A stretch of DNA of 64,000 bases from Paludibacter sp. GTDB taxonomy: Bacteria; Bacteroidota; Bacteroidia; Bacteroidales; Paludibacteraceae. The DNA is taken from assembly GCA_019163375.1 (NCBI GenBank), contig JAFLKK010000009.1:248001-312000 (forward strand), given 5' to 3'. Positions 35,676-64,000 of this stretch are shown piece after piece (position 1 is the first letter of the stretch; each line of letters opens with the position of its first letter). The position numbers were made by a program, and so were the translations under genes. The notes below the pieces were generated by a model, which was not told where the DNA came from, made no database searches, and worked only from the letters and a program-made list of their open reading frames with translations.

Positions 35676-35687
35676 ACACTAGAAAAG

Positions 35688-37757: not shown

Positions 37758-37764
37758 TACAGCT

Positions 37765-43459: not shown

Positions 43460-43830
43460 TATAGCTATGAATTTAATTCTTAATTAGAATTCAATTCCAA
43501 TTCGAAGTTTTTTTTCTGCAAAATTCATTTGTGAGAGTATGCCGATTCTGTTATGGAATTTATGGCAACTTATTATTTTATATATGCTTACAAATATTTA
43601 ACACTATAATAAGCATTTTTCTTCACTTAATTATTGCTAATTTAAATTTCTATTGTACTTTTGTTAAACTTAATATAAAGTACAATTGTGGAAAAAATAA
43701 ATATATGTTTGTATTACAAACATATATTTATTATATACTTTAAATATAACATTACGAGAATTGCTTATATGCATCATGTCGACAGATATGTTTCGTATAT
43801 AGTGATCCTAAATAGTCACGTATATAAAAT
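43460..43830 (+). promoter_or_regulatory. rteC upstream control region with two long inverted repeats
   Basis: 370 bp without a gene. ATTGTACTTT (43652-43661) pairs with AAAGTACAAT (43677-43686). A 37-bp perfect palindrome follows at 43696-43732, 18-bp arms around a central T, with TATGTTTG at 43704-43711 matching the -7 box TAnnTTTG inside its left arm; by symmetry another lies on the opposite strand. The layout suggests a repressed or bidirectional promoter about 100 bp before rteC. Confidence 0.55.
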
Positions 43831-44685
43831 ATGTATATGAAACAATTTACCCTTAATCTGTTCGAGAAAGTCTACAATGAGATAAGCAAAATTGAATTGG
43901 AGGAAGAGTTCGTTTTTGAAAAATCAATAAGGATAATCCCAATACTTCATGAGGCTTATGACGAACTCAAAATATTTATTACAAGATATTCTTTCGAAAA
44001 CGATGATGAAGAAATTCTCTTTTTCAAAGAAATTAAACCTCAGATATTGAGTAATCTTATTTTTTATATAAGCATTCATGAATTTGAAATTAATCGCCCG
44101 ACTGGAAGTGATCTGGTACAAAAGGCGTATACAACTAGTCAACATGATAAGTTGAAGGATTTTTTTTACAATAATGTTGATTTTTACAGATATTATCGTG
44201 CAAGACGAACAGATCTAGATAAGTATTATTTTTTACGTAGGAAGCAAGATGTCCAATTATGCTTTGATAGTTTTTACTTTGAAAGGGATCCTACATTTTC
44301 TACAGGATTTGATTTGACTGTTGCTAAAATGCTAGCAAATGATATGTTGAGTGTCTATCTCAATAAAGAATTGGCAAAATTTGATATCCCTTCCATTAAA
44401 CAGTTGGAGATTCAAAATTACCCAAAGTTTAAAGAAACTTGGACTGACTCCAAAGCTTCTCTTGTGGAACTTATATATGCAATTTACACTACTGGAAGTA
44501 TAAATAACGGTAAATGTGATCTTAAGAGATTAGCCGCATATTTTGAAAATGTATTCAATATAGAGTTGGGTGACATATATCGTACCTTTATTGAAATTCG
44601 GGGGCGTAAAGGAAATCGGGTACAATATTTAGACGAGCTTCGAAAGAACCTAATTGCACGTATGGATGAATTGGATAATCAGTAA
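43831..44685 (+). CDS. rteC: RteC-family regulator of element excision
   Basis: 284 residues (a second Met at 43837 is also possible). Sequence features such as FKEIKPQILSNLIFYISIHE, NVDFYRYYRARRTDLDKYYF and SKASLVELIYAIYTTGSINN match RteC-domain proteins. In CTnDOT, RteC activates transcription of the excision operon xis2c-xis2d-orf3-exc. Here RteC lies downstream of exc/topB and just before two small HTH genes that may take the xis roles. The partner two-component system rteA/rteB and tetQ are not in this window. Function is inferred from the family. Confidence 0.87.
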   Translation: MYMKQFTLNLFEKVYNEISKIELEEEFVFEKSIRIIPILHEAYDELKIFITRYSFENDDEEILFFKEIKPQILSNLIFYISIHEFEINRPTGSDLVQKAYTTSQHDKLKDFFYNNVDFYRYYRARRTDLDKYYFLRRKQDVQLCFDSFYFERDPTFSTGFDLTVAKMLANDMLSVYLNKELAKFDIPSIKQLEIQNYPKFKETWTDSKASLVELIYAIYTTGSINNGKCDLKRLAAYFENVFNIELGDIYRTFIEIRGRKGNRVQYLDELRKNLIARMDELDNQ

Positions 44686-44971
44686 ATCAGATACTTGATT
44701 CCATGTTTTGTATTTTTATAAATCCCAAGTTGTTCCCAAGTTACATATCCCGATTTTGCATACAGGATGTTCATTTAAATGAGGTTTTAAGAGGAATTAA
44801 TTGATTTTTATTTCTTCTCCGAATACATCCCAAGTATACAAATTTATAATATCAAAAGTGACTTTGCCTAAATGCCTTATTTGTAGTCTATTAAATTTAT
44901 TTTTCAAAATAGTTTTCCCAACTTGTGAATTCCGTATTTCAAATACACTGAACTTTGTCCAAAAAAATATT

Positions 44972-45331
44972 ATGGACGTAATAACTATTGAATCAAGCGC
45001 ATTTAAAGAATTAGAGGCAAAAATAGATTTAATTGCCAAGTTTGTAACTGATCATAAAGTTGAAGTAATTGATAATCCGGATGAGACTTGGGTGGACAGT
45101 TACGATGTTTGTTCATTTTTGAAAATAAGTGAGCGTACATTGCAACGATTCCGTTCAAAAGGGTTAATCTCTTATTCAATTATTTCTGGAAAAACATTTT
45201 ATACAATAACTGAAGTTAAGCGGATGCTTAGTGATAGAATTGTCAGAAGAAACGAGGAATGTTTACAGGATTTAATTCGGAATCATAAATCGTATATCGA
45301 AAAAAGAAGAATCAACAAAGGTAAGAAGTAA
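44972..45331 (+). CDS. Small helix-turn-helix protein, excisionase-like (first of two)
   Basis: 119 residues from the ATG at 44972; the frame is open further upstream but that part has no resemblance to the family. The central region TWVDSYDVCSFLKISERTLQ followed by RFRSKGLISYSIISGKTFYT is a MerR/excisionase-type winged HTH, with a basic C-terminal tail (KSYIEKRRINKGKK). Paired proteins of this type occur near the integrase end of CTnDOT-family elements and act as recombination directionality factors or regulators. It precedes a related gene by 32 bp. Confidence 0.8.
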   Translation: MDVITIESSAFKELEAKIDLIAKFVTDHKVEVIDNPDETWVDSYDVCSFLKISERTLQRFRSKGLISYSIISGKTFYTITEVKRMLSDRIVRRNEECLQDLIRNHKSYIEKRRINKGKK

Positions 45332-45363
45332 AAAAAATGTGAGTTAACACTAAACATTTGACT

Positions 45364-45651
45364 ATGGAAGTTACTAACGAAACCTTTGAAGATTGGATGA
45401 GAAAACTCGTCGATAATCTCGAATTGACGAATAAAAAGATTGACCGTCTACTTAATCAACAAGCTTGTCTTGAAGGTGATGCTCTACTGGATAATCAGGA
45501 CTTAATTGGAATGCTTAAAGTAAGTCATCGTACGCTACAACGGTATCGTTCACAAGGTAAATTGCCATACTGTAACCTGAGTGGTAAATCGTTTTATAAA
45601 CTTACCGATGTTCAAAGGTTTATTGACAATCAATTTGCTGGAATAAAATAG
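45364..45651 (+). CDS. Small helix-turn-helix protein, excisionase-like (second of two)
   Basis: 95 residues from the ATG at 45364 (a TTG two codons earlier is possible). DLIGMLKVSHRTLQRYRSQG and KLPYCNLSGKSFYKLTDVQR form the same HTH as in the gene before it; the two share the pattern TLQR(Y/F)RS(K/Q)G. This suggests a tandem duplication with divergence. A good terminator follows at 45701-45743, marking the right end of the recognisable element backbone. Confidence 0.8.
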   Translation: MEVTNETFEDWMRKLVDNLELTNKKIDRLLNQQACLEGDALLDNQDLIGMLKVSHRTLQRYRSQGKLPYCNLSGKSFYKLTDVQRFIDNQFAGIK

Positions 45652-45700
45652 TTCGATGATTCTATCTTGAATTATGTTTGGTTACTAGCTTTGTGATATT

Positions 45701-45743
45701 GTTTAGGTAAGAGTACCATTACTTCTTGCCTAAACATTTTTTT
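45701..45743 (+). terminator. Terminator after the HTH gene pair
   Basis: GTTTAGG (45701-45707) pairs with CCTAAAC (45729-45735); the inner arms AAGAGTA and TACTTCTT extend the stem imperfectly. Seven T residues follow (45737-45743). It separates the element backbone from the hipBA genes. Confidence 0.75.
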
Positions 45744-45788
45744 ATCAATTAACCCCGTTGAACTTTCCTTAATTAAATACCATAATAC

Positions 45789-45849
45789 TATAGATAAATC
45801 TATAATATTATAATATATTTGGATATTATTGTAGATATATCTATATTTG
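45789..45849 (+). promoter_or_regulatory. hipBA promoter with paired palindromic operators
   Basis: TATAGAT-AA-ATCTATA (45789-45804) and TAGAT-AT-ATCTA (45832-45843) share the core TAGAT-N2-ATCTA. Their centres are 41 bp apart, about four helical turns. TATATTTG occurs at 45814-45821 and 45842-45849, both fitting the -7 box; the second operator abuts the second box. This layout is as expected for autorepression by the HTH antitoxin that follows. Confidence 0.65.
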
Positions 45850-45866
45850 TAAAAATATTATTGACT

Positions 45867-46160
45867 ATGTATACAGAACTATACGAACAATCGGGTAGCG
45901 ATATTATCCGACAGCTGGGGAAACGATATAGTGACTATCGTAAAAGAATGGGATATACTCAAAAGGATGTCGCAGAGAAATCAGGTTTGAGCATATTTAC
46001 AATCAGTTCTTTTGAGAACGGTTCTTCTACCGGGCTTACATTTGCTTCGTTTATCAAATTGCTACGGTCTATCGATAGCCTTGACGAAATTGAGAAACTG
46101 TTGCCGGAATTGCCGGAAAGTCCTCGTACATTATTTAAGAAACAGCAGAAAGAAAAGTAA
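45867..46160 (+). CDS. hipB: HipB-like HTH antitoxin
   Basis: 97 residues from the ATG at 45867; a TTG 48 bp upstream would start within the operator region and is unlikely. LGKRYSDYRKRMGYTQKDVA then EKSGLSIFTISSFENGSSTG is an XRE-type helix-turn-helix. It lies 2 bp before hipA, as HipB antitoxins do. HipB neutralises the HipA kinase and represses the operon; the paired TAGAT-N2-ATCTA sites upstream are the likely targets. Confidence 0.87.
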   Translation: MYTELYEQSGSDIIRQLGKRYSDYRKRMGYTQKDVAEKSGLSIFTISSFENGSSTGLTFASFIKLLRSIDSLDEIEKLLPELPESPRTLFKKQQKEK

Positions 46161-46162
46161 TT

Positions 46163-47416
46163 ATGGAAACGAATGTAGTAATGGTAAAACTATGGGGGAT
46201 GTCGGTAGGCTATCTTTCATGGGATAAAAAAGCAGATGTAGCTGTTTTTGAATATGAATCAGAATTCTTAGACAAAGGTTTGGAAATTGCTCCACTAACA
46301 ATGTCCATTAATTCGCCCCGAAGCAAGAAGCATATTCCCTGGACAGGTGATAAAGATAAATTGTATTTGGGACTTCCACCCATGATTGCCGATTCACTCC
46401 CTGACAAATGGGGTCATTCTCTTTTTAGAGCCTGGCTGCGAGATAATCATATTCCGACGAAGAAAGTAAGCCCGGTTGATCATCTTTCGTTTATTGGTAG
46501 TCGCACAATGGGTGCACTTGAATATGAGCCAGCTCAAAAGCTAGGTGACGACTCGGTTTTTTCGGTAGATATTGAACACCTATATGAGTTTGCTAAACAG
46601 GTATTAAATGAACGTGAAACAACAGTACTCAATTCAGAAAACTCAATTTTGTGGCAGGATTTGATAAAGATAAGTTCATCCCCGGGAGGTAAGCGTCCGA
46701 AAGCAATTGTCGCGGTAAATAAATCTACAGGCGAAGTAATTTCTGGACAAGGAAATATCCCTGAAGGGTTTGAACACTTTATTCTTAAATATGATGATAA
46801 TTCATCCTATCCATTGGCCAAATTGGAGTATGTTTATTACCAAATGGCTTTAGCTGCGGGAATAAATATGATGCCATCCGAATTACGTTCATACGGAAAT
46901 GTTACCCATTTTCTTACCCGCCGGTTTGACCGTGTTGGTAATGATCGAATACACACGCAAACCCTAGCTGCTATGTCACCAGGAAGTGATAGTTACGAAG
47001 ATTTATTTGCTGTAATACGCAGGCTTAATTTGCCGTACGAGGATAGCCGTCAACAATATCTGCGGATGGTATTTAATGTACTTGCACGTAATGTGGATGA
47101 CCATTCAAAAAACTTCAGCTTCTGCATGACTCCTGAGGGCGTGTGGCGTTTATCTCCGGCTTATGACTTAACTTATGGCGTTGATCTTTCTGCTCCGGCA
47201 TATATGAACAAACATTCTATTTCTATTAATGGCAAAACTGAGGATATAACCCCTGAAGATTTGGAAACGATAGCTCAGCGAAATGATATTCAAGATTATA
47301 AGTCTTTAATTGATATGGTAAGCAATGCTGTTGGTAAATTTAGGGAGTTTGCAGCCGAATTGAAAATTGACGAACAATTAATTGATAGTATTGAATCTGA
47401 TTTTGTAAGGGTATAA
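46163..47416 (+). CDS. hipA: HipA-family serine/threonine kinase toxin
   Basis: 417 residues, close to full length for HipA. The N-terminal beta subdomain (VKLWGMSVGYLSWDKKADVA) is followed by the Gly-rich loop SSPGGKRPKAIVAV near residue 172, the catalytic segment NVLARNVDDHSKNFSF near 306-321 with the predicted catalytic Asp, and the metal-binding-type LSPAYDLTYG near 330. E. coli HipA phosphorylates glutamyl-tRNA synthetase and induces dormancy. All key motifs are present, so the toxin is probably active. It runs convergently into the old end of the CRISPR array, only 27 bp away. Confidence 0.88.
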   Translation: METNVVMVKLWGMSVGYLSWDKKADVAVFEYESEFLDKGLEIAPLTMSINSPRSKKHIPWTGDKDKLYLGLPPMIADSLPDKWGHSLFRAWLRDNHIPTKKVSPVDHLSFIGSRTMGALEYEPAQKLGDDSVFSVDIEHLYEFAKQVLNERETTVLNSENSILWQDLIKISSSPGGKRPKAIVAVNKSTGEVISGQGNIPEGFEHFILKYDDNSSYPLAKLEYVYYQMALAAGINMMPSELRSYGNVTHFLTRRFDRVGNDRIHTQTLAAMSPGSDSYEDLFAVIRRLNLPYEDSRQQYLRMVFNVLARNVDDHSKNFSFCMTPEGVWRLSPAYDLTYGVDLSAPAYMNKHSISINGKTEDITPEDLETIAQRNDIQDYKSLIDMVSNAVGKFREFAAELKIDEQLIDSIESDFVRV

Positions 47417-47443: not shown

Positions 47444-50400
47444 ATTTCAATTCCATTAGGTACGATTGGAAGCGTAGCTCAGGCGTTTGCCGTCGATAGT
47501 AAACATATATTTCAATTCCAGTAGGTACGATTGGAAGCAATAACTATTGACTCAGGTAAGGAAACTTTACAAGATTTCAATTCCATTAGGTACGATTGGA
47601 AGCTAATCTGCTCATAACGAGAGATTAGCTTTTTTAAAATTTCAATTCCATTAGGTACGATTGGAAGCATCTTCTTCCGGTGGAACGGACATTATCATAA
47701 CATTTCAATTCCATTAAGTACGATTGGAAGAAATAGCCGGCTGTCAACCCGCATTGCTCAAGCTCATTTCAATTCCATTAGGTACGATTGGAAGGCTATG
47801 CCGTTGCCCGCTGCCATCTTAGCGATAATTTATTTCAATTCCATTAGGTACGATTGGAAGAAAGGCATTGAATACAAAAAAGAAGTGGTTACGAAATTTC
47901 AATTCCATTAGGTACGATTGGAAGCTTTTCTGACCATAAAGATAGCCGGCGAAACCGGATTTCAATTCCATTAGGTGCGATTGGAAGTAATACAAATAAA
48001 AAAAAGCCGCGTTTCACAACGATTTCAATTCCATTAGGTGCGATTGGAAGTCCGTACCGATAACGAAGAGAAAGTTTTCTACTTGATTTCAATTCCATTA
48101 GGTGCGATTGGAAGTGGCTGCGTTTTCCAAAGTAACAATAACATTACTATTTCAATTCCATTAGGTGCGATTGGAAGACCACTTTCGGCAGGGCGATGTT
48201 CTTTTATACCGTATTTCAATTCCATTAGGTGCGATTGCAAGAAACGGTTTTTTAGTGTCGACCGCGTCCTTTGCTTGATTTCAATTCCATTAGGTGCGAT
48301 TGGAAGAAATTTCACTTGCAGAAGGTACAAATCAAATCCTTATTTCAATTCCATTAGGTGCGATTGGAAGAGGATCATAACCCATCACTAAACAAAAGCA
48401 TCTACCATATTTCAATTCCATTAGGTGCGATTGGAAGCAAAGCTTCGATACCACTTTTGCCAATCTTCCTCATTTCAATTCCATTAGGTGCGATTGGAAG
48501 CAATTCTCTTAAATTTGTGAATAATGATTTTCATTATTTCAATTCCATTAGGTGCGATTGGAAGTGGCTCGCTCTTCAGTGTTGAAACTGGATAACCTTA
48601 TTTCAATTCCATTAGGTGCGATTGGAAGCTTCTTTTTCGAGTGATTCGCACGGCTCCTTAACTTTATTTCAATTCCATTAGGTGCGATTGGAAGGCATCT
48701 ATGAACGGGGCTGAGATCATGTCAATGTCTTATTTCAATTCCATTAGGTGCGATTGGAAGTTTTCGTATGCTTTCAATCTCCTTCAATATTTTCTTATTT
48801 CAATTCCATTAGGTGCGATTGGAAGCATCCTCGTACTGCTTAATGGACTCGTTGTTTATCTATTTCAATTCCATTAGGTGCGATTGGAAGACCTTTATGA
48901 AAACGAAGACCCTCGATTCTCTTTTACATTTCAATTCCATTAGGTGCGATTGGAAGTTTGGAGTTTACAATCCCCTTGGAACGGTTTTACTGTATTTCAA
49001 TTCCATTAGGTGCGATTGGAAGTCCGAAAAGGCTGATGTAGATAGTAAATATTCTGCAATTTCAATTCCATTAGGTGCGATTGGAAGAATACGGCTTTCA
49101 AAGGCATTATTGAAGCACTTGGATTTCAATTCCATTAGGTGCGATTGGAAGAGTTATTTCAGGAAATGATGGTGCGGCTAAGAAATATTTCAATTCCATT
49201 AGGTGCGATTGGAAGCCAGCAAGTTACGACAACACGATTAGTTTTTACAAATTTCAATTCCATTAGGTGCGATTGGAAGTTGCGACATGGTTGCTGACTG
49301 CTTTTCGTATGCACATTTCAATTCCATTAGGTGCGATTGGAAGCGTATTCACTAGCACACGAGATACCTTTTCATTGTATTTCAATTCCATTAGGTGCGA
49401 TTGGAAGTGCCATTTACTCAAATCATTACTATACTTTTTCCCATTTCAATTCCATTAGGTGCGATTGGAAGCTATCTCGGCCACGTCGTCCGTAGTAGTA
49501 GATTTATATTTCAATTCCATTAGGTGCGATTGGAAGTGATTACTCAATTGCTTCATACTTACAATATCGTATTTCAATTCCATTAGGTGCGATTGGAAGA
49601 AATTGTAACTCAAGCTTATTATTACATTCAACCTTATTTCAATTCCATTAGGTGCGATTGGAAGCTATTCTCATTTTTTTAATCTTATGTATAATTTTAT
49701 TTCAATTCCATTAGGTGCGATTGGAAGGATTTGATAGATACGGTTCATCCGCTATAACTGGATTTCAATTCCATTAGGTGCGATTGGAAGTTTTTGAGGT
49801 TCTTCAGCACTGGATCCTTCCAAAATTTCAATTCCATTAGGTGCGATTGGAAGATTACCCCCCCATATATGAAGATTTGAACTACTTGTATTTCAATTCC
49901 ATTAGGTGCGATTGGAAGGAGTACTGAAAGTGTGTCCTACTTATCAAAAATTTCATTTCAATTCCATTAGGTGCGATTGGAAGAACTGCATTTTTACTTA
50001 CTCTGTGTCCTTTAAAAAATTTCAATTCCATTAGGTGCGATTGGAAGTGGATGCCGACCTATTGTTTGCGCCGCATGAAACGTAATTTCAATTCCATTAG
50101 GTGCGATTGGAAGGGGTCGGTCGATTTTAGACCAACCCTCTTTATTAAATTTCAATTCCATTAGGTGCGATTGGAAGTTGGCAATATCGACATTTTTTAA
50201 TCAATGTATTACATTTCAATTCCATTAGGTGCGATTGGAAGCGGCATCACCGACAAGGCAACGCTTGATATCCTGAATTTCAATTCCATTAGGTGCGATT
50301 GGAAGTTTGCTTGGTACGGTTGAACGCACCGGCATATTTGAATTTCAATTCCATTAGGTGCGATTGGAAGTACCCATCGTATCTGCGCTTGCATAGACCC

Positions 50401-53400
50401 GTTTAAAATTTCAATTCCATTAGGTGCGATTGGAAGGCCGTTTCTTTAAATCCCATACCAAGAGATTTACCACATTTCAATTCCATTAGGTGCGATTGGA
50501 AGTGTTTACTAAGTGATGTTCAACTTCCATTTCCATATTTCAATTCCATTAGGTGCGATTGGAAGGCTCGAGGGCGTGAATGTTCGTAAGGCTCTTACTA
50601 TATTTCAATTCCATTAGGTGCGATTGGAAGAATACGTAATTTCTAAACCGGTATAGTGGTATGTTATTTCAATTCCATTAGGTGCGATTGGAAGACATTC
50701 CCGGATAATAATGCATCGATCATCGCCAATTTCAATTCCATTAGGTGCGATTGGAAGGTTCTCCACCATGTACTAAGCAATGATCTATTTTTAAATTTCA
50801 ATTCCATTAGGTGCGATTGGAAGTTATTGATTAGGAAAATATTACTTGCTTTTATATCATTTCAATTCCATTAGGTGCGATTGGAAGCGATAACCCTAAA
50901 ATGGAGCGAGGAACGATTTACACATTTCAATTCCATTAGGTGCGATTGGAAGAGTTGTCACGCCAAAATCTGTCTTCAGTATTTTTTATTTCAATTCCAT
51001 TAGGTGCGATTGGAAGTCTGCATAGCATTCGACTACAATGGTAATATCAATATTTCAATTCCATTAGGTGCGATTGGAAGAAACCTTTTCATTCCTCATA
51101 TGCGCTCCCTTTCCCATTTCAATTCCATTAGGTGCGATTGGAAGTATTCCTGAAGGGAATATTACAAATCATATTATCCATTTCAATTCCATTAGGTGCG
51201 ATTGGAAGGTCTGTTTTACACAGGCGAGATTGTTACCGAAGAATTTCAATTCCATTAGGTGCGATTGGAAGACTTAGTGCTGCTAAGTATCGAAAAGAAT
51301 TACTCATTTCAATTCCATTAGGTGCGATTGGAAGCCTCCATGTGCTTACGCTTCATGTCGCGTATAGCTAATTTCAATTCCATTAGGTGCGATTGGAAGT
51401 GTCAATGCGAGCGTTTAATGCTTCGTTTTGTGCATTTCAATTCCATTAGGTGCGATTGGAAGTACAATGTGTGGGGTACAATGTACAACGCTCAAAAATT
51501 TCAATTCCATTAGGTGCGATTGGAAGCCCATTACGGCTTTGCTATAGTTCGATGAAGATAGATTTCAATTCCATTAGGTGCGATTGGAAGCTATCTTCGT
51601 GTCGCATAAGAAGCGTTATTCGTTTATTTCAATTCCATTAGGTGAGATTGGAAGGGTTTTATTTCGGTTGACGGTGGCTCCGGTGTTGGATTTCAATTCC
51701 ATTAGGTGCGATTGGAAGAATAGGATTACCATTTTCATCAAGTTGTGGAGTATTGTATTTCAATTCCATTAGGTGCGATTGGAAGATTTATTGAATGCAT
51801 CCAAAATCACTACTACAGTATTTCAATTCCATTAGGTGCGATTGGAAGTATTAAGCACTAATTAAAGTAATCATTCGTTTATGATTTCAATTCCATTAGG
51901 TGCGATTGGAAGTCATTGTGCTCCCATCGTATCTAACTGTAAATCCATATTTCAATTCCATTAGGTGCGATTGGAAGTCATTGTGCTCCCATCGTATCTA
52001 ACTGTAAATCCATATTTCAATTCCATTAGGTGCGATTGGAAGTAACCTTTTGCAATAAGAGAAGCTACTGTTACTGTATTTCAATTCCATTAGGTGCGAT
52101 TGGAAGAATGGTATCGCACGGTTGGAATATGGTTTTCACATATTTCAATTCCATTAGGTGCGATTGGAAGTCGTAAATTATTTAATTAGTAAAAGTGCTA
52201 GTACTAATTTCAATTCCATTAGGTGCGATTGGAAGGATGAAACGTATAGGATTAAGAATAATGGTTCTTTGATTTCAATTCCATTAGGTGCGATTGGAAG
52301 AAAAAAAATATATAGGCAATGCTGTAGAGGTAACCAATTTCAATTCCATTAGGTGCGATTGGAAGCATTTTTGTAATAAAGTAGCGTAGCGGTTATTAAT
52401 GATTTCAATTCCATTAGGTGCGATTGGAAGCTTTATGGCTAGCGAGTTTGCGCTTTCTTTACTTTATTTCAATTCCATTAGGTGCGATTGGAAGAAAGGC
52501 GGGTTAATGCCTCCACCGCCTGTCTGTGGCATTTCAATTCCATTAGGTGCGATTGGAAGTTGTTTTTGCTGAATTTGAAACTCCTTTCATTTCTGTATTT
52601 CAATTCCATTAGGTGCGATTGGAAGTAAATAATCAGTTAGTTGTGTAAATTCTACATCTGTATTTCAATTCCATTAGGTGCGATTGGAAGTCACTGTTTT
52701 TGCGTCAGTGAATTCTTCGGTTGAATTTCAATTCCATTAGGTGCGATTGGAAGTTAGGAAGCGGAGATATTCAAATCGTTTCAGGCGGATTTCAATTCCA
52801 TTAGGTGCGATTGGAAGATCTGAGGCTTACTAAAATGCTTGCCATAGGCCAATTTCAATTCCATTAGGTGCGATTGGAAGGTTTCTGTGCTCTGTAGCAT
52901 TACTAGAGAATAACATATTTCAATTCCATTAGGTGCGATTGGAAGAATGCTCCATGTATGGGGTGATTGGCAACTTCGAAATTTCAATTCCATTAGGTGC
53001 GATTGGAAGTAGAAGTACTTATCTTGTCTGCTGCTGGACACTAATTTCAATTCCATTAGGTGCGATTGGAAGATTTTCCAATTTACTGCCGGCGCTGAAG
53101 TACGTACATTTCAATTCCATTAGGTGCGATTGGAAGTTGTCGAAGCATCTTTTGTCTTGGTTCTTGGTTCTATTTCAATTCCATTAGGTGCGATTGGAAG
53201 GAGTAGCGTTGGTGCGTGGTATTGAAAGCTTATTATTTCAATTCCATTAGGTGCGATTGGAAGTAGCGAAATAACTAAAACTACAGGTACGTTTTTAGAT
53301 TTCAATTCCATTAGGTGCGATTGGAAGTTTTCTGCTTTTACAGTGAAGCGGTGTAATTCTCATTTCAATTCCATTAGGTGCGATTGGAAGTTAAAGCCTT

Positions 53401-56400
53401 TCCTGCTGCCATCTTCTGTTCTTCCATTTCAATTCCATTAGGTGCGATTGGAAGTCTCTTGTCGGATTTTCAAGACTTCGAGCACGAGATTTCAATTCCA
53501 TTAGGTGCGATTGGAAGTCAATTTTCTCTCCGGTCTCCAAGCTCCTTCTTAATTTCAATTCCATTAGGTGCGATTGGAAGAAAGCACAAGATTTATTAAA
53601 TATTGTATAATTGTTATTTCAATTCCATTAGGTGCGATTGGAAGATGTTTTGCGTATAGGCCTCATTCCAAACATCTGAATTTCAATTCCATTAGGTGCG
53701 ATTGGAAGATTTATTTTGTTTTCTTTGTTTTCTTAGATTGTTATTTCAATTCCATTAGGTGCGATTGGAAGGTGACATACATTTCGGATTTATAAACTCT
53801 AGGTTCATTTCAATTCCATTAGGTGCGATTGGAAGACCCTCGGACTGGCTAGATACAACGTCAGTAGCCTATTTCAATTCCATTAGGTGCGATTGGAAGT
53901 CGGAGTTTGTGGAGCTCTTCGACCGTGTGCTTGAAATTTCAATTCCATTAGGTGCGATTGGAAGAAAAGAACGCGTTCGGGTATAGCTTGTGCACGATCA
54001 TTTCAATTCCATTAGGTGCGATTGGAAGTGTTGAGGCCTAACTGTAGCGCGGCCCTGTAGCGCATTTCAATTCCATTAGGTGCGATTGGAAGTCCTTATC
54101 CAGTTCGAACCAAAATGGTTTCATGACTATTTCAATTCCATTAGGTGCGATTGGAAGTACTTTCATCCGACACGCGTAAACTTGATCTTGCCAATTTCAA
54201 TTCCATTAGGTGCGATTGGAAGGAACTAGAGCAGGCCAACAACGAGCTCCAACAACATTTCAATTCCATTAGGTGCGATTGGAAGCACAGCTAGCTAAAT
54301 TGCTCGTAAAAACTTACGGATTTCAATTCCATTAGGTGCGATTGGAAGTTTGTTCGAGTATTGTTAAACGCTCTTTGAAATACTTATTTCAATTCCATTA
54401 GGTGCGATTGGAAGTTTAGGTCGAACTGGTTCATCTGTTAATCATTTCTAATTTCAATTCCATTAGGTGCGATTGGAAGCACAACTTATAAACTTCGTCA
54501 AAACTTATTTGAATATTTCAATTCCATTAGGTGCGATTGGAAGAATAAACGCACCGCCTGACTGGACAATAGATGTTCATTTCAATTCCATTAGGTGCGA
54601 TTGGAAGTCCATATACCGGCAGCCTTAATAAATACTAAGTTATTTCAATTCCATTAGGTGCGATTGGAAGCAATGTCAGAGCGAAATTATCCCCACCTTT
54701 AGCGTATTTCAATTCCATTAGGTGCGATTGGAAGAATTATACCAAGTCAGTGGATAAGGTGTCTATTCAATTTCAATTCCATTAGGTGCGATTGGAAGCA
54801 TTGCTGCACTGACTGACTTCTTTTGCTCCCTTGTATTTCAATTCCATTAGGTGCGATTGGAAGGACTAGCGAAAGGGTATTTGGCAAGCGGAATTACTCA
54901 TTTCAATTCCATTAGGTGCGATTGGAAGAAACATAGTAGTCTTTGAATTTGAATGCGAAACCGATTTCAATTCCATTAGGTGCGATTGGAAGAGTACGAC
55001 AAAAAACACAAAAACGTAGTAACATCAATTTCAATTCCATTAGGTGCGATTGGAAGTCTGTTATCGTTGAGTTAGGCAACGGTACTTTTGTTATTTCAAT
55101 TCCATTAGGTGCGATTGGAAGTTTTTAGCTTAATGATCCACATCGCTGGTGCGAAATTTCAATTCCATTAGGTGCGATTGGAAGCAGCTATGGCATTGCC
55201 CCATATTTCACTCTCCGAAATTTCAATTCCATTAGGTGCGATTGGAAGCAAATTGCAAAGATGTTTTCTTTCAAGAGACCTACATTTCAATTCCATTAGG
55301 TGCGATTGGAAGTTTTTATATGTTTATTTATTCCCCTGGGGGTTCGATATTTCAATTCCATTAGGTGCGATTGGAAGACAGATAAGGAGATGGTAAGACA
55401 AATAAGATATATATTTCAATTCCATTAGGTGCGATTGGAAGCTTTGTGTGGTTTCAAAATCAATCGTGACATTTCTATTTCAATTCCATTAGGTGCGATT
55501 GGAAGTCGGTACTGTTTAGATGAGTAATCGAAACATCCCCATTTCAATTCCATTAGGTGCGATTGGAAGCGGTACTGTTTAGATGAGTAATCGAAACATC
55601 CCCATTTCAATTCCATTAGGTGCGATTGGAAGCATAAGCCCGGACACCGATAATACGCCGGTACTTCATTTCAATTCCATTAGGTGCGATTGGAAGCTGG
55701 ATCCAAACCAATGGGAGTGCACAATGGTACATTTCAATTCCATTAGGTGCGATTGGAAGACCCAAAGACAGTGGCCTCATGGGGTTTGAATCACTTATTT
55801 CAATTCCATTAGGTGCGATTGGAAGGCTTTTGAGACTGGAATACTAACCGATTGTGTGTTATATTTCAATTCCATTAGGTGCGATTGGAAGCTTTGTGAT
55901 GCTAACCTTCGTAATGCTAACCTTTGATTTCAATTCCATTAGGTGCGATTGGAAGTAGCCTTTAGCGATAAGAGAGGCGACTGTTACTATATTTCAATTC
56001 CATTAGGTGCGATTGGAAGTTTGATGTGGAACGGAAAAGGACGCTGCTATTTCGAATTTCAATTCCATTAGGTGCGATTGGAAGCTTCAAATGAAATTTG
56101 AATTGGTCGATTGATTGAAATTTCAATTCCATTAGGTGCGATTGGAAGTCCCCAAATCTAGTTTTTGTCAAAGCTGCTGGTGCAATTTCAATTCCATTAG
56201 GTGCGATTGGAAGAAGTTTTAGCGGAACAGTTACTGCATCTTCTTTTAGATTTCAATTCCATTAGGTGCGATTGGAAGCCTGATGCAATGAACGCTGTAG
56301 GGTTGTCAAACACGAATTTCAATTCCATTAGGTGCGATTGGAAGAACCAAATCTTGTAGATTTTTTAATTGCTCGGCATTATTTCAATTCCATTAGGTGC

Positions 56401-58081
56401 GATTGGAAGACGATTTTTCAGCAGTTCCGCAATGTTTTCCTGAGAATTTCAATTCCATTAGGTGCGATTGGAAGTGTTTTTCGCCTTGCAATAAAAGACA
56501 AATTTATTGAATTTCAATTCCATTAGGTGCGATTGGAAGATTTTAGCGTATTGACAACAAATCCAATTAAACAAATTTCAATTCCATTAGGTGCGATTGG
56601 AAGTTATTTCGCTTAAAAATGCATACCGTGTTAACTTCATTTCAATTCCATTAGGTGCGATTGGAAGCAGGAGCAAAAAACCCAAAAATAATTACAATTC
56701 AATTTCAATTCCATTAGGTGCGATTGGAAGAAGCACCGGAGCAACAAGAAGAAGAGGTTGACGGAATTTCAATTCCATTAGGTGCGATTGGAAGTTCCGG
56801 AACTTACTCCTTACGAAGATGTTACCGAATTTCAATTCCATTAGGTGCGATTGGAAGAATTTTAGCGTATTGACAACAAATCCAATTAAACAAATTTCAA
56901 TTCCATTAGGTGCGATTGGAAGTGACTTAAAAGCTCCGTAACTTTTCCGACTATCCTTATTTCAATTCCATTAGGTGCGATTGGAAGTTAAACTTTGGCG
57001 ATTTGGGAATGGCTCGGACAATATTTCAATTCCATTAGGTGCGATTGGAAGCCTTCTGCAAGGGTTTGCATTGCAAGTGTACTATATTTCAATTCCATTA
57101 GGTGCGATTGGAAGCAGTGTTAGTGCGAAGTTATCCCCACCCTTAGCATATTTCAATTCCATTAGGTGCGATTGGAAGATTGGATTGGCTCAAAATCAAC
57201 TTCAATGCTTTCAAATTTCAATTCCATTAGGTGCGATTGGAAGTGCAAACGTAAGGTCAAATCAAAAGTTTGGAACGTTATTTCAATTCCATTAGGTGCG
57301 ATTGGAAGTATTACTTGTGTCGACACCAGTAGTAGATAATCCTGATTTCAATTCCATTAGGTGCGATTGGAAGCAAATCCTGCTTTTCTTGCATCAGGTA
57401 TTATTTTATTTCAATTCCATTAGGTGCGATTGGAAGCATAAGCTAACAGGGGTTAAAGCTGAAATAGCAATATTTCAATTCCATTAGGTGCGATTGGAAG
57501 GTTTGCTTGGTACGATTGAACGCACCGGCATATTTAAATTTCAATTCCATTAGGTGCGATTGGAAGCGTAGATCCGTCGCCAGAGAATACACGATCGTAC
57601 TTATATTTCAATTCCATTAGGTGCGATTGGAAGAATAGTATTCAACTATCACACGACTCACTACCGGATTTCAATTCCATTAGGTGCGATTGGAAGATTT
57701 CTACGGTGGCTATCATTATCCATTTATTCCATATTTCAATTCCATTAGGTGCGATTGGAAGAGCTTTCAGGGTCAAAACAGTTGATTGTTTTTACACATT
57801 TCAATTCCATTAGGTGCGATTGGAAGCCGCTGCATAAGACCAAAACAGACAACCATAGCGAATTTCAATTCCATTAGGTGCGATTGGAAGAAATCCTGAA
57901 AGTACAATGACTATGCTTCAAAGTAATTTCAATTCCATTAGGTGCGATTGGAAGAGACTCTCCATCTGTATTTACCTTTTCCGGAAGATATTTCAATTCC
58001 ATTAGGTGCGATTGGAAGATATAGGCAATAGTATCAGCTTTGTTTGGTACATATTTCAATTCCATTAGGTGCGATTGGAAG
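47444..58081 (-). CRISPR. Very large type I-B CRISPR array, about 166 repeats
   Basis: A 29-bp repeat, on the plus strand ATTTCAATTCCATT followed by AGGTGCGATTGGAAG, occurs about 166 times by hand count, with spacers of about 34-38 bp (average period near 64 bp) and no interruption over 10.6 kb. On the minus strand the repeat ends ATTGAAAT, the usual 8-nt type I crRNA handle, so transcription is leftward from a leader at 58082-58292. Repeats 1-8 (47444-47924) carry GGTACG instead of GGTGCG, one with AAGTACG; further single variants end at 48241 (TTGCAAG) and 51654 (GGTGAG). These mark the old, leader-distal end at 47.4 kb. Open frames inside the array, encoding runs like FNSIRCDWK, are artefacts. 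Confidence 0.98.
47601..47635 (+). terminator. Spacer that forms a terminator facing hipA
   Basis: AGCTAATCT (47601-47609) pairs with AGATTAGCT (47622-47630), extended inward by CTC/GAG, and six T residues follow (47630-47635). Most of it is the third-oldest spacer; the first AG belongs to the repeat. It would stop plus-strand read-through from hipA about 200 bp past its end. On the minus strand no T run follows, so crRNA transcription should not be ended there. Confidence 0.5.
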
Positions 58082-58292
58082 CCGTCAATTACGGCTAAAA
58101 AAACAGCTGAATATCAGCTGCATAAAAATTTATTTTGTATCATTTTTTGTTTTTTTTGTTGTCGATGTGGAATGATACAAAAACTCCGGGACATCGACAA
58201 TATATATAGTTCGTTGATTTTCAATACGTCAAAGATCTCTTGTCGTATCTTTAAAGTAAAGATATGACGAATTATATCTAATCGACAAGTCA
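58082..58292 (-). promoter_or_regulatory. CRISPR leader with interlocked inverted repeats
   Basis: About 210 bp, AT-rich, between cas2 and the newest repeat. Next to the repeat, GCCGT (58081-58085) pairs with ACGGC (58091-58095), using the repeat's terminal base. CAGCTGA-ATA-TCAGCTG lies at 58104-58120. TTTTGTATCATT (58133-58144) pairs with 58171-58182, and TTGTCGATGT (58159-58168) with ACATCGACAA (58191-58200), so the two pairs interlock. TCGTATCTTTA near 58243 and TAAAGATATGA near 58257 form another stem. Expected roles are crRNA promoter and Cas1-Cas2 integration signals; no box is assigned. Confidence 0.7.
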
Positions 58293-58556
58293 CTACAGAA
58301 AATTGTCAGTGCTACAGCGCTCTTTTCCAATTACTTGTTTGTCTAACCATTTTTCTGTTCGTCCTGAAAAAATTATCAAACTATCTTCATCTTCATCCAT
58401 AAAATCTTTCGCTTTCAAAGTTAGTTCTTTTAATTTTACTTCCGAAATTTCGCCCTCAAAAACCGAATTCTGTATCCAGTTTAAGTATTTACGGCATAGT
58501 TTCAGCATTTTTCCAACGCGTTTCTCGCCACAATCGTACACTAATATTACATACAT
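58293..58556 (-). CDS. cas2: CRISPR-associated endonuclease Cas2
   Basis: 87 residues. The ferredoxin-like start MYVILVYDCGEKRVGKMLKL includes the conserved Asp8, and KYLNWIQNSVFEGEISEVKL is the typical second strand-helix of type I-B Cas2. Cas2 is the structural centre of the Cas1-Cas2 integrase. The gene is last in the cas operon, 3 bp after cas1 and directly before the leader. Confidence 0.94.
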   Translation of the reverse strand: MYVILVYDCGEKRVGKMLKLCRKYLNWIQNSVFEGEISEVKLKELTLKAKDFMDEDEDSLIIFSGRTEKWLDKQVIGKERCSTDNFL

Positions 58557-58559
58557 AGC

Positions 58560-59576
58560 TTACCACCACATTTTAAAAGGTTTATATTCCTCCATACCTA
58601 AAAGATGTTTACTCATTTTGTAACATTCCAATTTTATTAAGTGGCGATAGCTTACGTTACGTTTCAGAGCCCGATGTTGAATTGTTTCGTTCAGTCGTTC
58701 TTCGAATGCTTGAACAAATATTTTTTTTCCACTGGGGTTCAAAACGCACTTGTTAAGTTTTTTATCAAAATGTTTTTCTTGAATTTCTCGTTTGTTCAAT
58801 ACTTTGAAAATCACCCTGTCTACCAGTATCGGTTTGAATATCTCTGAGATATCAAGCGAAAGTGAATAACGGCGTTCACCAGGGGTATGTAGATAACTAA
58901 TTGTCGGATTCAATTGCGTTTGATGAATTGCACGTAAACATTGACTGTAACACATCATATTGCCAAACGAAATTAATGCATTTACTTCATTTAGTGGTGG
59001 CTGTTTAGTTCTGTTGCCCATTTCAAAATCATTCAAAATCAGATCAAAACCTTCATAGTAAGTTTGGCGTATGTTTCCCTCTAGCCCCATCAATTCATCT
59101 ACTGCATTTGTTGAAGGGATATTGGCAGCATAACTTTCTACACGATGGATGATATCTGCAAGCTCTTTACCACGTTTATCATAGTATTTTAGATTTTTGA
59201 CCATATTGAACGCAGCACCTTCAATAAATTTACGAGCAATGACAATTCTCTTTTTCTTGTCTTGATAGAAAGCTGTTTGAGCAAGGAGCATTCTGCCAGA
59301 CAATAAACTATCCTTTGGCATAAACGACCCGGTATAGTTTTCATAATAGTCGAAAAAATGAACCGCGATATCGTTCTGTCCCAGAAAATTATACAAAGCA
59401 CTATTGGCAGTTAGTGAGCCAAACGCATAAAACTCAGCAATATCTTCGACCGGCAAATAACGAGGTTGACCGTTTCGTTCGATACCATTGTCGTCTTCCT
59501 CAACGGGTGTAAACTTAAGAGTATTATCCTTGCGTTGTAAAGTGCCGGGGTTAAATAAATAATAGGTTTTTTTCAT
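58560..59576 (-). CDS. cas1: CRISPR integrase Cas1 (type I-B)
   Basis: 338 residues from the ATG at 59576 (MKKTYYLFNPGTLQRKDNTL); an upstream in-frame start overlaps the cas4 end and is unlikely. Catalytic metal ligands are visible: Glu166 in LMGLEGNIRQTYYEGF, His230 in ISYLHTPGERRYSLSLDISE and the acidic residues Asp242/Glu245 after it. It inserts new spacers at the leader-proximal repeat with Cas2; Cas4 upstream probably trims prespacers at the PAM. Length and motifs are complete, so adaptation should be functional. Confidence 0.95.
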   Translation of the reverse strand: MKKTYYLFNPGTLQRKDNTLKFTPVEEDDNGIERNGQPRYLPVEDIAEFYAFGSLTANSALYNFLGQNDIAVHFFDYYENYTGSFMPKDSLLSGRMLLAQTAFYQDKKKRIVIARKFIEGAAFNMVKNLKYYDKRGKELADIIHRVESYAANIPSTNAVDELMGLEGNIRQTYYEGFDLILNDFEMGNRTKQPPLNEVNALISFGNMMCYSQCLRAIHQTQLNPTISYLHTPGERRYSLSLDISEIFKPILVDRVIFKVLNKREIQEKHFDKKLNKCVLNPSGKKIFVQAFEERLNETIQHRALKRNVSYRHLIKLECYKMSKHLLGMEEYKPFKMWW

Positions 59577-59587
59577 GACAAAATTGA

Positions 59588-60088
59588 TTATTCTGTGACA
59601 TAACAAAATTCGTAATAACTACATTGCTTGCATATCTTAGCATTTATAACGGATGGACAATTATCATCGGCAATTATTTTTGCAATATCCTTTTCCATTT
59701 CACAGATTTTTTCGCGATCAATATTCGTCAAAAATACTTTGGCGGTTTGCCGTAGGGTAGGGTATTCCAAAATTCCTGTTACATTATCTACACCATTCCG
59801 TTCGAGTACATAAATATAGTATTTCAGCTGCCATTCGTGCGCAGTCTCGATTTTGTCCGACTTTTTGATCTCATGAATCACTTTGTTGCGGGCATCATAA
59901 TAATCGAGTTTGACACCTTCAATCTCCAGCTCCTCGTAACGTTCTGAACGCTGGGGATAGCTCGTTTCGTGAATCAACTTGCCTTCGTACACCAAATCCG
60001 ATGTGTGCTCCATGTTGATGCCATTAGCAAACAACCATAATTTGCGCTTGCAAATCTGATAATAATTGAAATGAGTACCGGTAATCAT
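59588..60088 (-). CDS. cas4: CRISPR-associated exonuclease Cas4
   Basis: 166 residues. Four cysteines for an iron-sulfur cluster are at Cys13 (YYQICKRKLWLF) and Cys153, Cys156, Cys162 (AKICKQCSYYEFC). The RecB-nuclease core is EIEGVKLDYYDARNKVIHEI then KKSDK near residue 55-80. Cas4 helps select PAM-bearing prespacers and sets spacer length and orientation. It lies between cas3 (21 bp) and cas1 (11 bp), the usual I-B order. Confidence 0.94.
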   Translation of the reverse strand: MITGTHFNYYQICKRKLWLFANGINMEHTSDLVYEGKLIHETSYPQRSERYEELEIEGVKLDYYDARNKVIHEIKKSDKIETAHEWQLKYYIYVLERNGVDNVTGILEYPTLRQTAKVFLTNIDREKICEMEKDIAKIIADDNCPSVINAKICKQCSYYEFCYVTE

Positions 60089-60109: not shown

Positions 60110-62419
60110 TTATAGGTAAATGTCTTTAGAATTTATTTGTGTTTCTTCTTCTTTTAATTGCAAACCTAATTCGTTCGTATATTTCCGTTTTATTACAAAA
60201 TAACTTGTCTGAACAACTTTGTCTTCATTTTTTGCTTCATATGCGTGAGTTCTTCGTTCTATTACACCTGAATTGATAAAACCTGCAAAACGTTTTTTTG
60301 AGATTTGAACTTTCAACGATTCTGCTTTTATAAATTCATACTGATTCAGGAATGTTTTGAATTCTGTTTCATTAATTGCAGGCAATACCTTGATTCCATC
60401 AAATTTAGAATAGAAGTCTTCTTCCGATTTTGGAGAATATATAAATGGAGATAGTTGGTTTTTTACCAGATTGTTCAAAGTATCATAAACTAAATCATAT
60501 TCTTCTTTATCTTTTGAATCCCAAGTCGGATATACGAAGTCAATAGCCTTTTGTAGTTCCTTTTCTTGAACACTTTCACCAAACCAACTAAGGGCTTCCA
60601 AGGTTCGGTCTATTATACCCTGATTAGTGTAAATATACTTCGAATCAACTTCATTACGTTCTTTAAAAACATTACAGCCACTGATACCTTTCTCTCTTTT
60701 TCTATTTACGCGTCCAAATCTTTGAATTAGAGCATCAATAGGAGCTGGCTCTGTGTAAATTACATCATAATCAATATCTAAACTAACTTCGATGGCTTGT
60801 GTTCCTACTAATAACCGAATATCATCTCCATTCAAGTCTTGTTCTTTTCTATTCCTGTCAATAGCATTAAAATTACTATGAAGCAACACCTTCTTATCAG
60901 ATAGTAATGTATTGTAGACTTGTTGCGACTGTTCTACGGAATTGCAAACAACCAATACCTTTTTATCACTATCCAGCTCTGCTTGAATCAAATCTAAATT
61001 ATCGGCTAATAAACCTTCATGCAATACAACTCTATGACGGGTAAATCTCTCATACAATTCATCTTTTGCTGATATTTCTGAATGAGTGCCTACTGCTTTC
61101 TCTAATTCTAGTTTCAGAAATTGAGGTAATGTGGCTGTCATTATAAACACTTTGACCTTAAGATATTTTACTGCAAATTCTATCAATACTACGATTTGTG
61201 CAAAGACATCCGGTTGATAAGCGTGTATTTCATCGAAAATAAAATAGCCTCCAACCCATTCAAAAATTCCTTTCTCGAAACCTTTCAACCCGAAAATATT
61301 TTTGAGCAGTTGAAAGGGTGTTACAACTTTAATCGGTGTTACAATTGTTCTGTAGTCTTCTCTTAGTTTGTATGTCAGGTATTGTCTTTTTTCTTGTGAA
61401 ATTGTTGGGTTTTCTCTTTCAACTAAACTCTCAAGATATTCCGTCAACTTACCGTGAACTAATCCAACCTTATCTTTATTGCCAATGTCATTTCCAAGCC
61501 GTTCATACATGGCATTGATGGATGCTGTGAAAGGCAGTATATAGAATACACGTCCCTGACCGTTTAGTTGCATTTGTTTTTGTAACCAAAGAAATGATGT
61601 TTCAGTTTTGCCTGAACCTGTTGGAGCTGTTAGTATTACATTGCATTCGCTGGTTGTTGCTTCTAATTGATGTGGATAGAAATCATATCCTTTATTCTGT
61701 AAAGCAAGTCTTTTGGCATTGAGAAATTCAAAATCTGAATTTTCCAATAGTTCAATCTTCGAAATAAAGGCAGAGGACAAATGATCACATTGCTTAAAGC
61801 CACCAGCCATCAGAAGTAAATCCAAGTAGTTTGATTGTTCTAACGTTGCAGGATTCCGTTGGTATTCCAGTATCAATCTATTGGGTAAACCCGAAGTAAA
61901 TCCACTAAGATCAATATCAAACTGTTTCAACAGCGAACGAATAGAATCGCTATTTATATGCTGTTTAAACTCTGTTTCAAAGGATAGTTTCGTGTCTTCA
62001 ACGAATTCAAACAAAAAGCTATTCATGCTTTTTTGTTTATAAGAGTGTCCAATAAAACCCAATAAATCATCATAGCTTTTATGATGACCGGCAACCACTT
62101 GTTTAATTATTTTTTTTTCTGAATCCGTCATATTCAGACCGTCAATAAACGGAATCGAATATAATTCATGACGTTGCTTAAGCCAGTTATGTCGTTCGCC
62201 TCGTAACATGTGTTGAAACTCAGCATGTGACTTTCCTAAATCATGACAAATGATACACAAATAGAGCAAATGCCAGAAATGTTCAGCATCTGCCACTGGT
62301 AGATTGGGAAAACCTTTTTTCAGGTTATCCAATAGTTTCAATCCATCTTGAATGTGTTGTTTTAATGTAACCTGAGGTTCTGACTTTGCCAAAACCTCAG
62401 GTTTATTTAAATTATCCAT
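60110..62419 (-). CDS. cas3: CRISPR helicase-nuclease Cas3
   Basis: 769 residues from the ATG at 62419 (MDNLNKPEVLAKSEPQVTLK), which overlaps the cas5 stop by 8 bp; a TTG 18 bp upstream is the alternative. The N-terminal HD nuclease has CIICHDLGKSHAEFQ near residue 55 and QRHELYSIPF after it. The helicase has Walker A LTAPTGSGKTETSFLW near 265, FDEIHAYQP near 393, TATLPQFL near 425 and the C-terminal QRFGRVNRKREKG near 560. Cas3 unwinds and degrades target DNA after Cascade recognition. All motifs are intact. Confidence 0.95.
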   Translation of the reverse strand: MDNLNKPEVLAKSEPQVTLKQHIQDGLKLLDNLKKGFPNLPVADAEHFWHLLYLCIICHDLGKSHAEFQHMLRGERHNWLKQRHELYSIPFIDGLNMTDSEKKIIKQVVAGHHKSYDDLLGFIGHSYKQKSMNSFLFEFVEDTKLSFETEFKQHINSDSIRSLLKQFDIDLSGFTSGLPNRLILEYQRNPATLEQSNYLDLLLMAGGFKQCDHLSSAFISKIELLENSDFEFLNAKRLALQNKGYDFYPHQLEATTSECNVILTAPTGSGKTETSFLWLQKQMQLNGQGRVFYILPFTASINAMYERLGNDIGNKDKVGLVHGKLTEYLESLVERENPTISQEKRQYLTYKLREDYRTIVTPIKVVTPFQLLKNIFGLKGFEKGIFEWVGGYFIFDEIHAYQPDVFAQIVVLIEFAVKYLKVKVFIMTATLPQFLKLELEKAVGTHSEISAKDELYERFTRHRVVLHEGLLADNLDLIQAELDSDKKVLVVCNSVEQSQQVYNTLLSDKKVLLHSNFNAIDRNRKEQDLNGDDIRLLVGTQAIEVSLDIDYDVIYTEPAPIDALIQRFGRVNRKREKGISGCNVFKERNEVDSKYIYTNQGIIDRTLEALSWFGESVQEKELQKAIDFVYPTWDSKDKEEYDLVYDTLNNLVKNQLSPFIYSPKSEEDFYSKFDGIKVLPAINETEFKTFLNQYEFIKAESLKVQISKKRFAGFINSGVIERRTHAYEAKNEDKVVQTSYFVIKRKYTNELGLQLKEEETQINSKDIYL

Positions 62420-63095
62420 AATATGAACTAAAATCAAGTTCGTGAAAATATATATGAACTTCTTTCCCTAATTTGGGATAATCAATGTATGCAGTAAGAC
62501 TTGTTTGTACGTCCACAGCACTATAGCTTATAATAGAATATGCTTCTGTACCCAAATTATTGCGAGGAATACTATCGGAGAAGTACTTTGGTAATGGCTG
62601 GATGAGACCTGGTAGAAAGTTCCCCATAAGTGGAATTATTTGTCCTTTAATCTTTTCAGCATTATGTATTTCTTCCAAATTTACTTCGATAATGCTATTT
62701 ACTGTTGCCAAGTCATTGGAACGGCCTAATAATAATGGATAAACAGGTAAACGAAAATAATCAACTATCTCTTCATCTTGTACATAGAGTATCAAATGAT
62801 TATTAAACAAAAACTCTCTGTTTATAATGTTCGATTTCGCCGTATTCTTCGGGTAGCCTTTGTCGTGCGCTTCAATTTGATAAATTGTTTCTAAATCTAT
62901 TTGTTTAGCGTCAAACTCAAAGTAATAACCTATTTTCAGTTTTTCATGCTTCAAATACTTTCCTGCGGCGGCATTAATTAATCCCAAAACTGTACTAATT
63001 GGAGGTACTTCTAGTGTTGGTTGAAATCCCGAAATAAGATTGGGATACTTGAAACTCGAAGTCCATGAAGTTATGTCAATTTTGAAGACTTCCAT
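62412..63095 (-). CDS. cas5: Cascade subunit Cas5 (type I-B)
   Basis: 227 residues. The N-terminus VFKIDITSWTSSFKYPNLIS then GFQPTLEVPPISTVLGLINA is the Cas5 RAMP signature, with the Pro-Pro-rich loop and GLI(N/S)A motif. Cas5 caps the 5' handle of the crRNA in Cascade. The start is 1 bp after the cas7 stop and the end overlaps cas3 by 8 bp, so the three are probably translated from one message. Confidence 0.93.
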   Translation of the reverse strand: MEVFKIDITSWTSSFKYPNLISGFQPTLEVPPISTVLGLINAAAGKYLKHEKLKIGYYFEFDAKQIDLETIYQIEAHDKGYPKNTAKSNIINREFLFNNHLILYVQDEEIVDYFRLPVYPLLLGRSNDLATVNSIIEVNLEEIHNAEKIKGQIIPLMGNFLPGLIQPLPKYFSDSIPRNNLGTEAYSIISYSAVDVQTSLTAYIDYPKLGKEVHIYFHELDFSSYYG

Positions 63096-63096
63096 A

Positions 63097-64000
63097 TTAC
63101 AATTGGGTTTTCAGTTGCGCTGTATATTGGTCAATAGCCTCATTAATAGAAACAACTTTCACGTTAGAAAATTTAGCTTCCAGTTGTTTCAGACTGTTTG
63201 CTTTTTCATCTAAGAATCCACTCCGACGACCGATAAATACAGTTCCTTGAATATTATCTTTATAGTCAGATAATACTTCAGTCAAAGCATCAATATTTAA
63301 ATCTACAACGTCATTTTCTCTTCCGTTCGCCGAAGCAATGTGCGAAAATGGATGATTTCCACTATTAAGAGTTGCTAGAATGATAAACTTAGGTGTCACA
63401 TCCCCCATATTATTAGTCTGCATAGCTCCTCCCGAGATATACTTTAAGGCTTGTATTGTTTCCACTACTCTTTTCTGACGAACAGCAGGTGCTAGACGCA
63501 CCAATTTGTATGGATTTCCTTTTTCATCTTTCAAAAATTTATCTTCCACTTCAGTTGCTCCATTTTCCAAAGCATCTTTTTTTAAAGCTTCGGTCAAGTT
63601 TTTAAAACCTGTCTTATTATATGTTGCAAAAGTTCCTGCTTGCTCTAAATCAAGACTAAACATACCTTTCAAAATAGCACTGTATTCTTGCTTCCCATAA
63701 GGCACTGAATCCCCATCTTGACGGGCCATACTCGACCAGTTTTCAACAGGGCGAACCGAACCTACTGAAACTAAAACAGAATTTTTCAGCGGAGAAACTC
63801 TTGTAACAGTAATATTCTCTTTTTTTACTTTTCCTTTATCATCGGTTACTTCTTCCGTTGCAGCTTTCATATATCCGAAGATATCATCATCGGCATATTC
63901 TATTGGATTAGCAGATGTAAAAGCAATTTTAGCTTCACGAGTAATTGGAGATAAATTCCAGTTAAATGATTTTTGCAATGTATCACGCCACCAATAACGC
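63097..64000 (-). CDS. cas7: Cascade backbone subunit Cas7 (Cst2/DevR type), 5' end outside window
   Basis: About 301 residues visible. The frame is open to the window edge (upstream codons read RYWWRDT before LQKSFNW), so the true start is outside. Cst2/DevR-like features include TSANPIEYADDDIFGYM, RQDGDSVPYGKQEYSAILKG and KYISGGAMQTNNMGDVTPKF. Cas7 forms the helical backbone that covers the spacer part of crRNA. Type I-B operons normally carry cas8b and cas6 upstream of cas7; they are expected just beyond 64 kb on the same strand. Confidence 0.92.
   Translation of the reverse strand, partial: RYWWRDTLQKSFNWNLSPITREAKIAFTSANPIEYADDDIFGYMKAATEEVTDDKGKVKKENITVTRVSPLKNSVLVSVGSVRPVENWSSMARQDGDSVPYGKQEYSAILKGMFSLDLEQAGTFATYNKTGFKNLTEALKKDALENGATEVEDKFLKDEKGNPYKLVRLAPAVRQKRVVETIQALKYISGGAMQTNNMGDVTPKFIILATLNSGNHPFSHIASANGRENDVVDLNIDALTEVLSDYKDNIQGTVFIGRRSGFLDEKANSLKQLEAKFSNVKVVSINEAIDQYTAQLKTQL

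Follow-up and report, generated by a model that had tools for sequence, protein, structure and literature searches.

Why would a single CRISPR array carry two spacers, dozens of units apart, that encode nearly the same peptide with almost only synonymous differences between them? The question arises in the window, a stretch of 64,000 nucleotides of Paludibacter sp. DNA (GCA_019163375.1, contig JAFLKK010000009.1), where the initial annotation had singled out such a pair. We found both spacers where it had placed them, on the minus strand: S72 at 52043-52077 and S133 at 55956-55990, each 35 bp long. They differ at six positions (3, 9, 12, 21, 24 and 34 on the plus strand; 33, 27, 24, 15, 12 and 2 in crRNA orientation). 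The peptides that it had read from the minus strand were also confirmed, TVTVASLIAKG-TA for S72 and IVTVASLIAKG-TA for S133, where TA is the remaining pair of bases; five of the six differences are synonymous third-position changes, and one exchanges T for I. The two are the 72nd and 133rd of 165 spacers and thus 61 apart, in agreement with its count of about 60.

The array (47444-58081; inferred transcription strand, minus) consists of 166 repeats of 29 bp and 165 spacers of 34-38 bp. Most repeats (156 of 166) are identical; the eight leftmost carry G19A, two of these with a second change, and two repeats elsewhere have one change each. A search of 19 other genomes for the repeat, allowing up to two mismatches, gave no match. 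To the right lie the cas genes, all on the minus strand: cas2 (58293-58556), cas1 (58560-59606; I-B model TIGR03641), cas4 (59588-60088), cas3 with helicase and HD parts (60110-62437; TIGR01587 and TIGR01596), cas5b (62412-63095; TIGR01895) and cas7/Cst2 (63097-64000, continuing beyond the window end; TIGR02585). After cas7, outside the window, we located cas8b1 (TIGR01908, Cas8b1/Cst1) and cas6. The I-B hallmark genes are all present (Cas3, Cas8b, Cas7, Cas5, Cas6, Cas1b, Cas2 and Cas4), and the operon adjoining the array is, as judged from its sequence, a complete type I-B set. Two cues bear on polarity: the altered repeats lie on the left, and cas2 lies on the right. Since 211 bp separate cas2 from the last repeat, we presume that the leader occupies 58082-58292 (minus strand), between cas2 and the first repeat to be transcribed, and that spacers become older leftwards; on this anatomy S72 would be the older and S133 the newer. 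The machinery and the immunity are thus those of an ordinary type I-B system, and it is the record kept in the array that is unusually long and legible.

All 165 spacers were mapped ungapped on 25 phage records or loci, a set that excludes some short or duplicate loci; reversed spacers served as the control (best control, 0.765). Nineteen spacers exceeded the control, at 17 distinct sites, and the triplets upstream of these sites were CCA at nine, CCG at four, and CAG, TCA, GCA and CAA at one each. CCA makes up 1.2% of strand positions, so that the chance of 9/17 is about 1e-13, for a motif picked after the data had been seen. All four sites that match at 97% or more (five spacers) have CCA. 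Among the closest matches, S5 fits at 34/35 behind CCA, and S44 (50242-50276, minus) and S46 (50371-50407, minus) fit the group-K phage K1 at 35/35 and 37/37, each behind CCA. With S45 between them, these neighbours (50242-50407) match record G358 at 35/35, 35/36 and 37/37, on one strand and with CCA. The 17 sites, which lie in relatives of the donors, point to CCA as the 5' PAM; CCG may be accepted too. The phages fall into two groups, T and K, whose markers match their own group only (20 group-T and 5 group-K sequences), and K1 gave no blastn match to group T at 1e-5.

Where do S72 and S133 come from? Among 22 loci read for relatives of VTVASLIAKG, VTATSLIAKG occurs in three (L014, L027 and L029) with a score of 36, the next best being 27, and in a relaxed scan four IMG/VR contigs in all, identical in that gene, carry such a relative. 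It forms the start, MAIP-IVTATSLIAKGYP, of a group-T protein of 148 amino acids, which begins MAIPIVTATSLIAKGYP; the gene lies downstream of the terminase and head-protease genes, and its product had no Pfam or PHROG match. The spacer site starts directly after the CCA of a Pro codon, and the final TA of both spacers fits the next residue, Tyr. At this site (T1 11779) S72 matches the group-T phage T1 at 24/35 and S133 at 25/35, with CCA in front. Because the matches are no better than this, the phage is not the donor, and the located group-T phages are, on sequence comparison, relatives of the source with the donors not among them. By nucleotides alone both spacers (S133, 0.714; S72, 0.686) fall below the best reversed-spacer control (0.765). 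When CC[AG] is required, S133 beats every control (0.714 versus 0.686; peptide score 40 versus 38), and S72 ties the best nucleotide control (0.686) and exceeds the second best (0.676), its peptide score of 35 lying between the best (38) and second-best (33) controls. The relative at the start of a phage gene supports the proposal that both spacers come from corresponding positions in a homologous gene carried by two diverged elements, and the CCA directly before the homologous site bears out a PAM-anchored choice. Repeated encounters with one element family are likewise borne out, ten other spacers matching group T above control, and the searches made brought up no matches to unrelated non-coding sequence.

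Two more spacers map to the 148-aa gene. S18 (48565-48599, minus) matches at 27/35, just above the unconditioned control; its flank in T1 is CAA, not CC, and S18 begins with the same 7 letters with which S72 ends. S82 (52691-52724, minus) lies 108 bp further on and matches at 25/34 behind CCA; it passes only when the PAM is required, falling short of the best control otherwise, and its peptide score of 36 is less than that of the best control. S18, S72, S82 and S133 thus map on one strand, with three start points within 108 bp. Elsewhere in T1 (G360), S115, S16, S110, S148 and S15 fall within about 660 bp (3302-3962), mapped mostly by translation; this may be another capture cluster or, alternatively, a gene that is well conserved.

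The pair is not alone in the array. Six spacer pairs stand clear of shuffles, with scores of 23 to 36, and the next real pair scores 14; S72/S133 has a local score of 23, whereas the highest scores after shuffling all spacers, done three times, were 15, 14 and 13. The five others, absent from the initial annotation, are S70/S71, S126/S127, S142/S147, S45/S157 and S113/S151. S113 (54671-54705, minus) and S151 (57115-57149, minus) share a site in the group-T terminase gene, AKGGDNFALTL, and each matches the phage locus L034 at 32/35, S113 with CCA. Of their six differences five are synonymous in frame, and the sixth falls in a partial codon before the frame and would also be synonymous with AA at the start of that codon, which is what L034 has (P = 0.0006). 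For S72/S133 the corresponding P is 0.017 (six random changes, best of six frames), so that its synonymous pattern taken alone is only moderately unlikely by chance; it gains weight because of the second pair, S113/S151, and the located gene. S45 (50306-50341, minus) and S157 (57501-57537, minus) share a group-K site, KYAGAFNRTKQ, matching K1 at 35/36 and 36/37, both behind CCA; they differ by two changes (P = 0.30 for the synonymous pattern). L030/K1 is one base from S45 and one base from S157, and L034 is three bases from S113 and three from S151; known phages are therefore intermediate between the members of a pair.

In the three pairs that differ by one base in length (S126/S127, S142/S147 and S45/S157) the PAM-side end is constant, as expected if the PAM fixes it; for the first two, both without a located protospacer, the PAM side is taken from the array orientation. 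S126/S127 (55506-55603) and S142/S147 (56540-56893) are identical save for one extra base at the inferred PAM-distal end, which suggests separate captures of one site each. S70/S71 (51913-52013) are adjacent 36-mers with the same sequence, which probably arose when one repeat-spacer unit was duplicated in tandem.

We also searched for the donors and their hosts. The strict peptide VTVASLIAKG gave 0 matches in viral contigs and 0 in genome contigs, and in 358 genomes of the family the sole match for the S72/S133 search was the array itself. When the array was compared by blast with phage records in two overlapping pieces, only weak matches were obtained (best E 0.7 and 0.9; 32 and 78 records). 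Against plasmids, the piece 50306-58081 matched 18 records. One is a Hymenobacter plasmid, matched in six pieces (E 0.004), which may carry a similar array; the other 17, from Borrelia, matched weakly. Peptide scans of the viral contigs returned 3 stretches for S45/S157 and 19 for S113/S151, the latter all in an open frame and all on contigs matching the terminase alignment; the gene of one of the 19 is a terminase large subunit by profile. The group-T terminase had no relative in genome contigs, and in 48 genomes of the genus a single distant match only, in the window's own genome; we therefore name no host for group T. That match (L063, at 21-323 of contig C18; E 1.1e-6) is possibly a prophage or phage contig.

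Together, these results very probably mean that S72 and S133 are separate captures, made at different times, of one PAM-defined site close to the start of a virion-region gene of two diverged group-T phages. The spacer sequences, the PAM and the homologous gene with its phage group were found directly; from them we infer the donors, the order in time, the loss of protection and any priming of the second capture by S72. Cas1, Cas2 and Cas4 are the type I-B adaptation proteins, which select sites. Captures from homologous genes would begin at one codon because these proteins would select sites at a 5'-CCA PAM, and selection on the phage protein would have left mostly synonymous differences between the donors. 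Spacer position 2, beside the PAM, belongs to the seed region. S72 may have stopped protecting because of its six mismatches with the later donor, position 2 among them, and the new capture, S133, may thereby have become possible. More generally, the evidence is good that PAM-defined sites were captured repeatedly from relatives that had diverged. Pairs that mark one site at different ages serve as matched fossils: they record the PAM, the frame in which unknown phage genes are read, and the bases changed between encounters.

How such a site came to be captured twice admits more than one answer. The chances are about even that it was coincidence: a large share of the 165 spacers may come from groups T and K, some sites being hit twice independently. 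We modelled this with assumed 40-kb genomes and the CCA density of T1 and K1, about 870 to 1030 CCA sites each. With the detected numbers of spacers, 0.19 same-site pairs are expected and the probability of at least three is 0.001, which speaks against coincidence, as does the probability of 0.046 with twice as many. The detected numbers are, however, lower bounds, since 139 of the 165 spacers have no accepted match, and the expectation rises to 0.79, 1.80 and 3.22 at two, three and four times as many; three pairs were seen. Independent sampling at PAM sites may be enough for the three pairs, and priming or hot spots may add to it. These numbers also qualify the description of spacer choice as very reproducible: repeated capture at PAM sites stands, but high reproducibility does not follow, because chance could produce three coincidences if far more spacers come from these phages than were detected; at two to three times the detected numbers, about 0.8 to 1.8 of the three pairs would be expected.

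Primed re-adaptation, which we consider a serious candidate though somewhat short of an even prospect, would make the same-site pairs a product of priming and not of independent sampling: a mismatched older spacer, S72 or S18, would have directed Cascade and Cas3 onto the diverged phage, with new spacers taken near and at its site. The three distinct sites within 108 bp of the 148-aa gene argue for it (P = 0.01 with 11 hand-listed T1 sites; P = 0.026 with 15, four more having been added), but this cluster had been noticed before its test. By eye, the K1 spacers S44, S45, S46, S157 and S159 lie on one strand and to one side of the older S5, in keeping with priming, whereas the K2 sites S62 and S161 break this pattern and both strands carry group-T sites around S14 or S18. 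Priming is a strict requirement in a haloarchaeal I-B system, according to the available text of PMC3936756. Spacers of the same group also occur in runs, as priming would produce, but repeated infection alone would also produce them.

We assessed these runs with the PAM required, under which the nucleotide or peptide score of 26 spacers (17 of group T and 9 of group K) exceeds that of the second-best control; one or two of them are probably false, S43 being among the doubtful. Group-T and group-K spacers form alternating runs, 5 in array order against 12.8 expected (P = 0.0005). The strict set of 19 likewise gave 5 runs against 10.5 expected (P = 0.008), and the 15 of these that remain without S45, S157, S113 and S151 gave 5 against 8.5 (P = 0.054). 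Only S45/S157 spans two runs, two K runs with one T run between them; S72/S133 and S113/S151 both fall inside a single long T run (S72 to S153), amid many unmatched spacers. A bolder reading, which we think unlikely, is that the array chronicles alternating waves of the two phage groups, with re-capture from diverged descendants preferentially where position 2 of the old spacer was mismatched, so that re-capture records escape from, or priming by, a failing spacer. Position 2 from the PAM does differ in all three diverged pairs; a special role for it was set aside, since the chance that all three pairs have some position in common falls short of significance (P = 0.057). With three same-site pairs and two phage groups in runs, the array could be used to test re-capture after seed mismatch against re-capture by priming.

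Duplication within the array, with one spacer copy mutating afterwards, is very improbable and was rejected as the origin of S72/S133, although the exact neighbours S70/S71 resemble a tandem duplication. The 35 bp of S72/S133 show six changes, of which five are synonymous, while the repeats beside them are identical; phage homologues of the sister site S113/S151 carry further synonymous variants; and in three pairs one end varies in length.

The preferred reading, separate captures of one PAM-defined site, has counterparts in the published texts available to us. The type I-B system of Bacteroides fragilis has a repeat, ATTTCAATTCCATAAGGTACAATTAATAC, that resembles the present one, and the sections of PMC9367070 at hand give its PAM as G at positions 2 and 3 downstream of the protospacer in the authors' orientation, which would be CCN upstream in crRNA orientation and equivalent to the PAM here; host and spacers are other ones, and the B. 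fragilis I-B arrays are described as low in heterogeneity and turnover. I-B systems of Moorella, with a CCA PAM, and Clostridium, with CCN, agree with ours in subtype and PAM (PMC8482600, in the part available), whereas the PAM here derives from 17 sites in donor relatives, and CCG may be accepted. For Legionella, the passages of PMC5071653 available describe several spacers against one recurrent element, LME-1, and a plasmid experiment in which two independently acquired spacers fell on one protospacer; that system is type I-C and one sequence was hit twice, whereas here the system is I-B and the versions are diverged. In the I-B system of Haloarcula hispanica, an old spacer that matches a virus in part sets off further capture from it (PMC3936756, available text); the subtype is the same, and capture there depends on the older spacer. 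By eye, the strands here show no clear pattern. Going by these texts, recurrent capture, two spacers on one protospacer and I-B priming have already been described, and S72/S133 is not a new kind of system.

Beside the old end of the array, 29417-47416 is occupied by mobile-element genes, including a coupling protein (T4SS), DUF4099/DUF3945 and a topoisomerase, together with a 1754-aa methylase-helicase, RteC and a HipBA-like pair. The same region carries an AbiEii-type toxin gene at 31544-32374.
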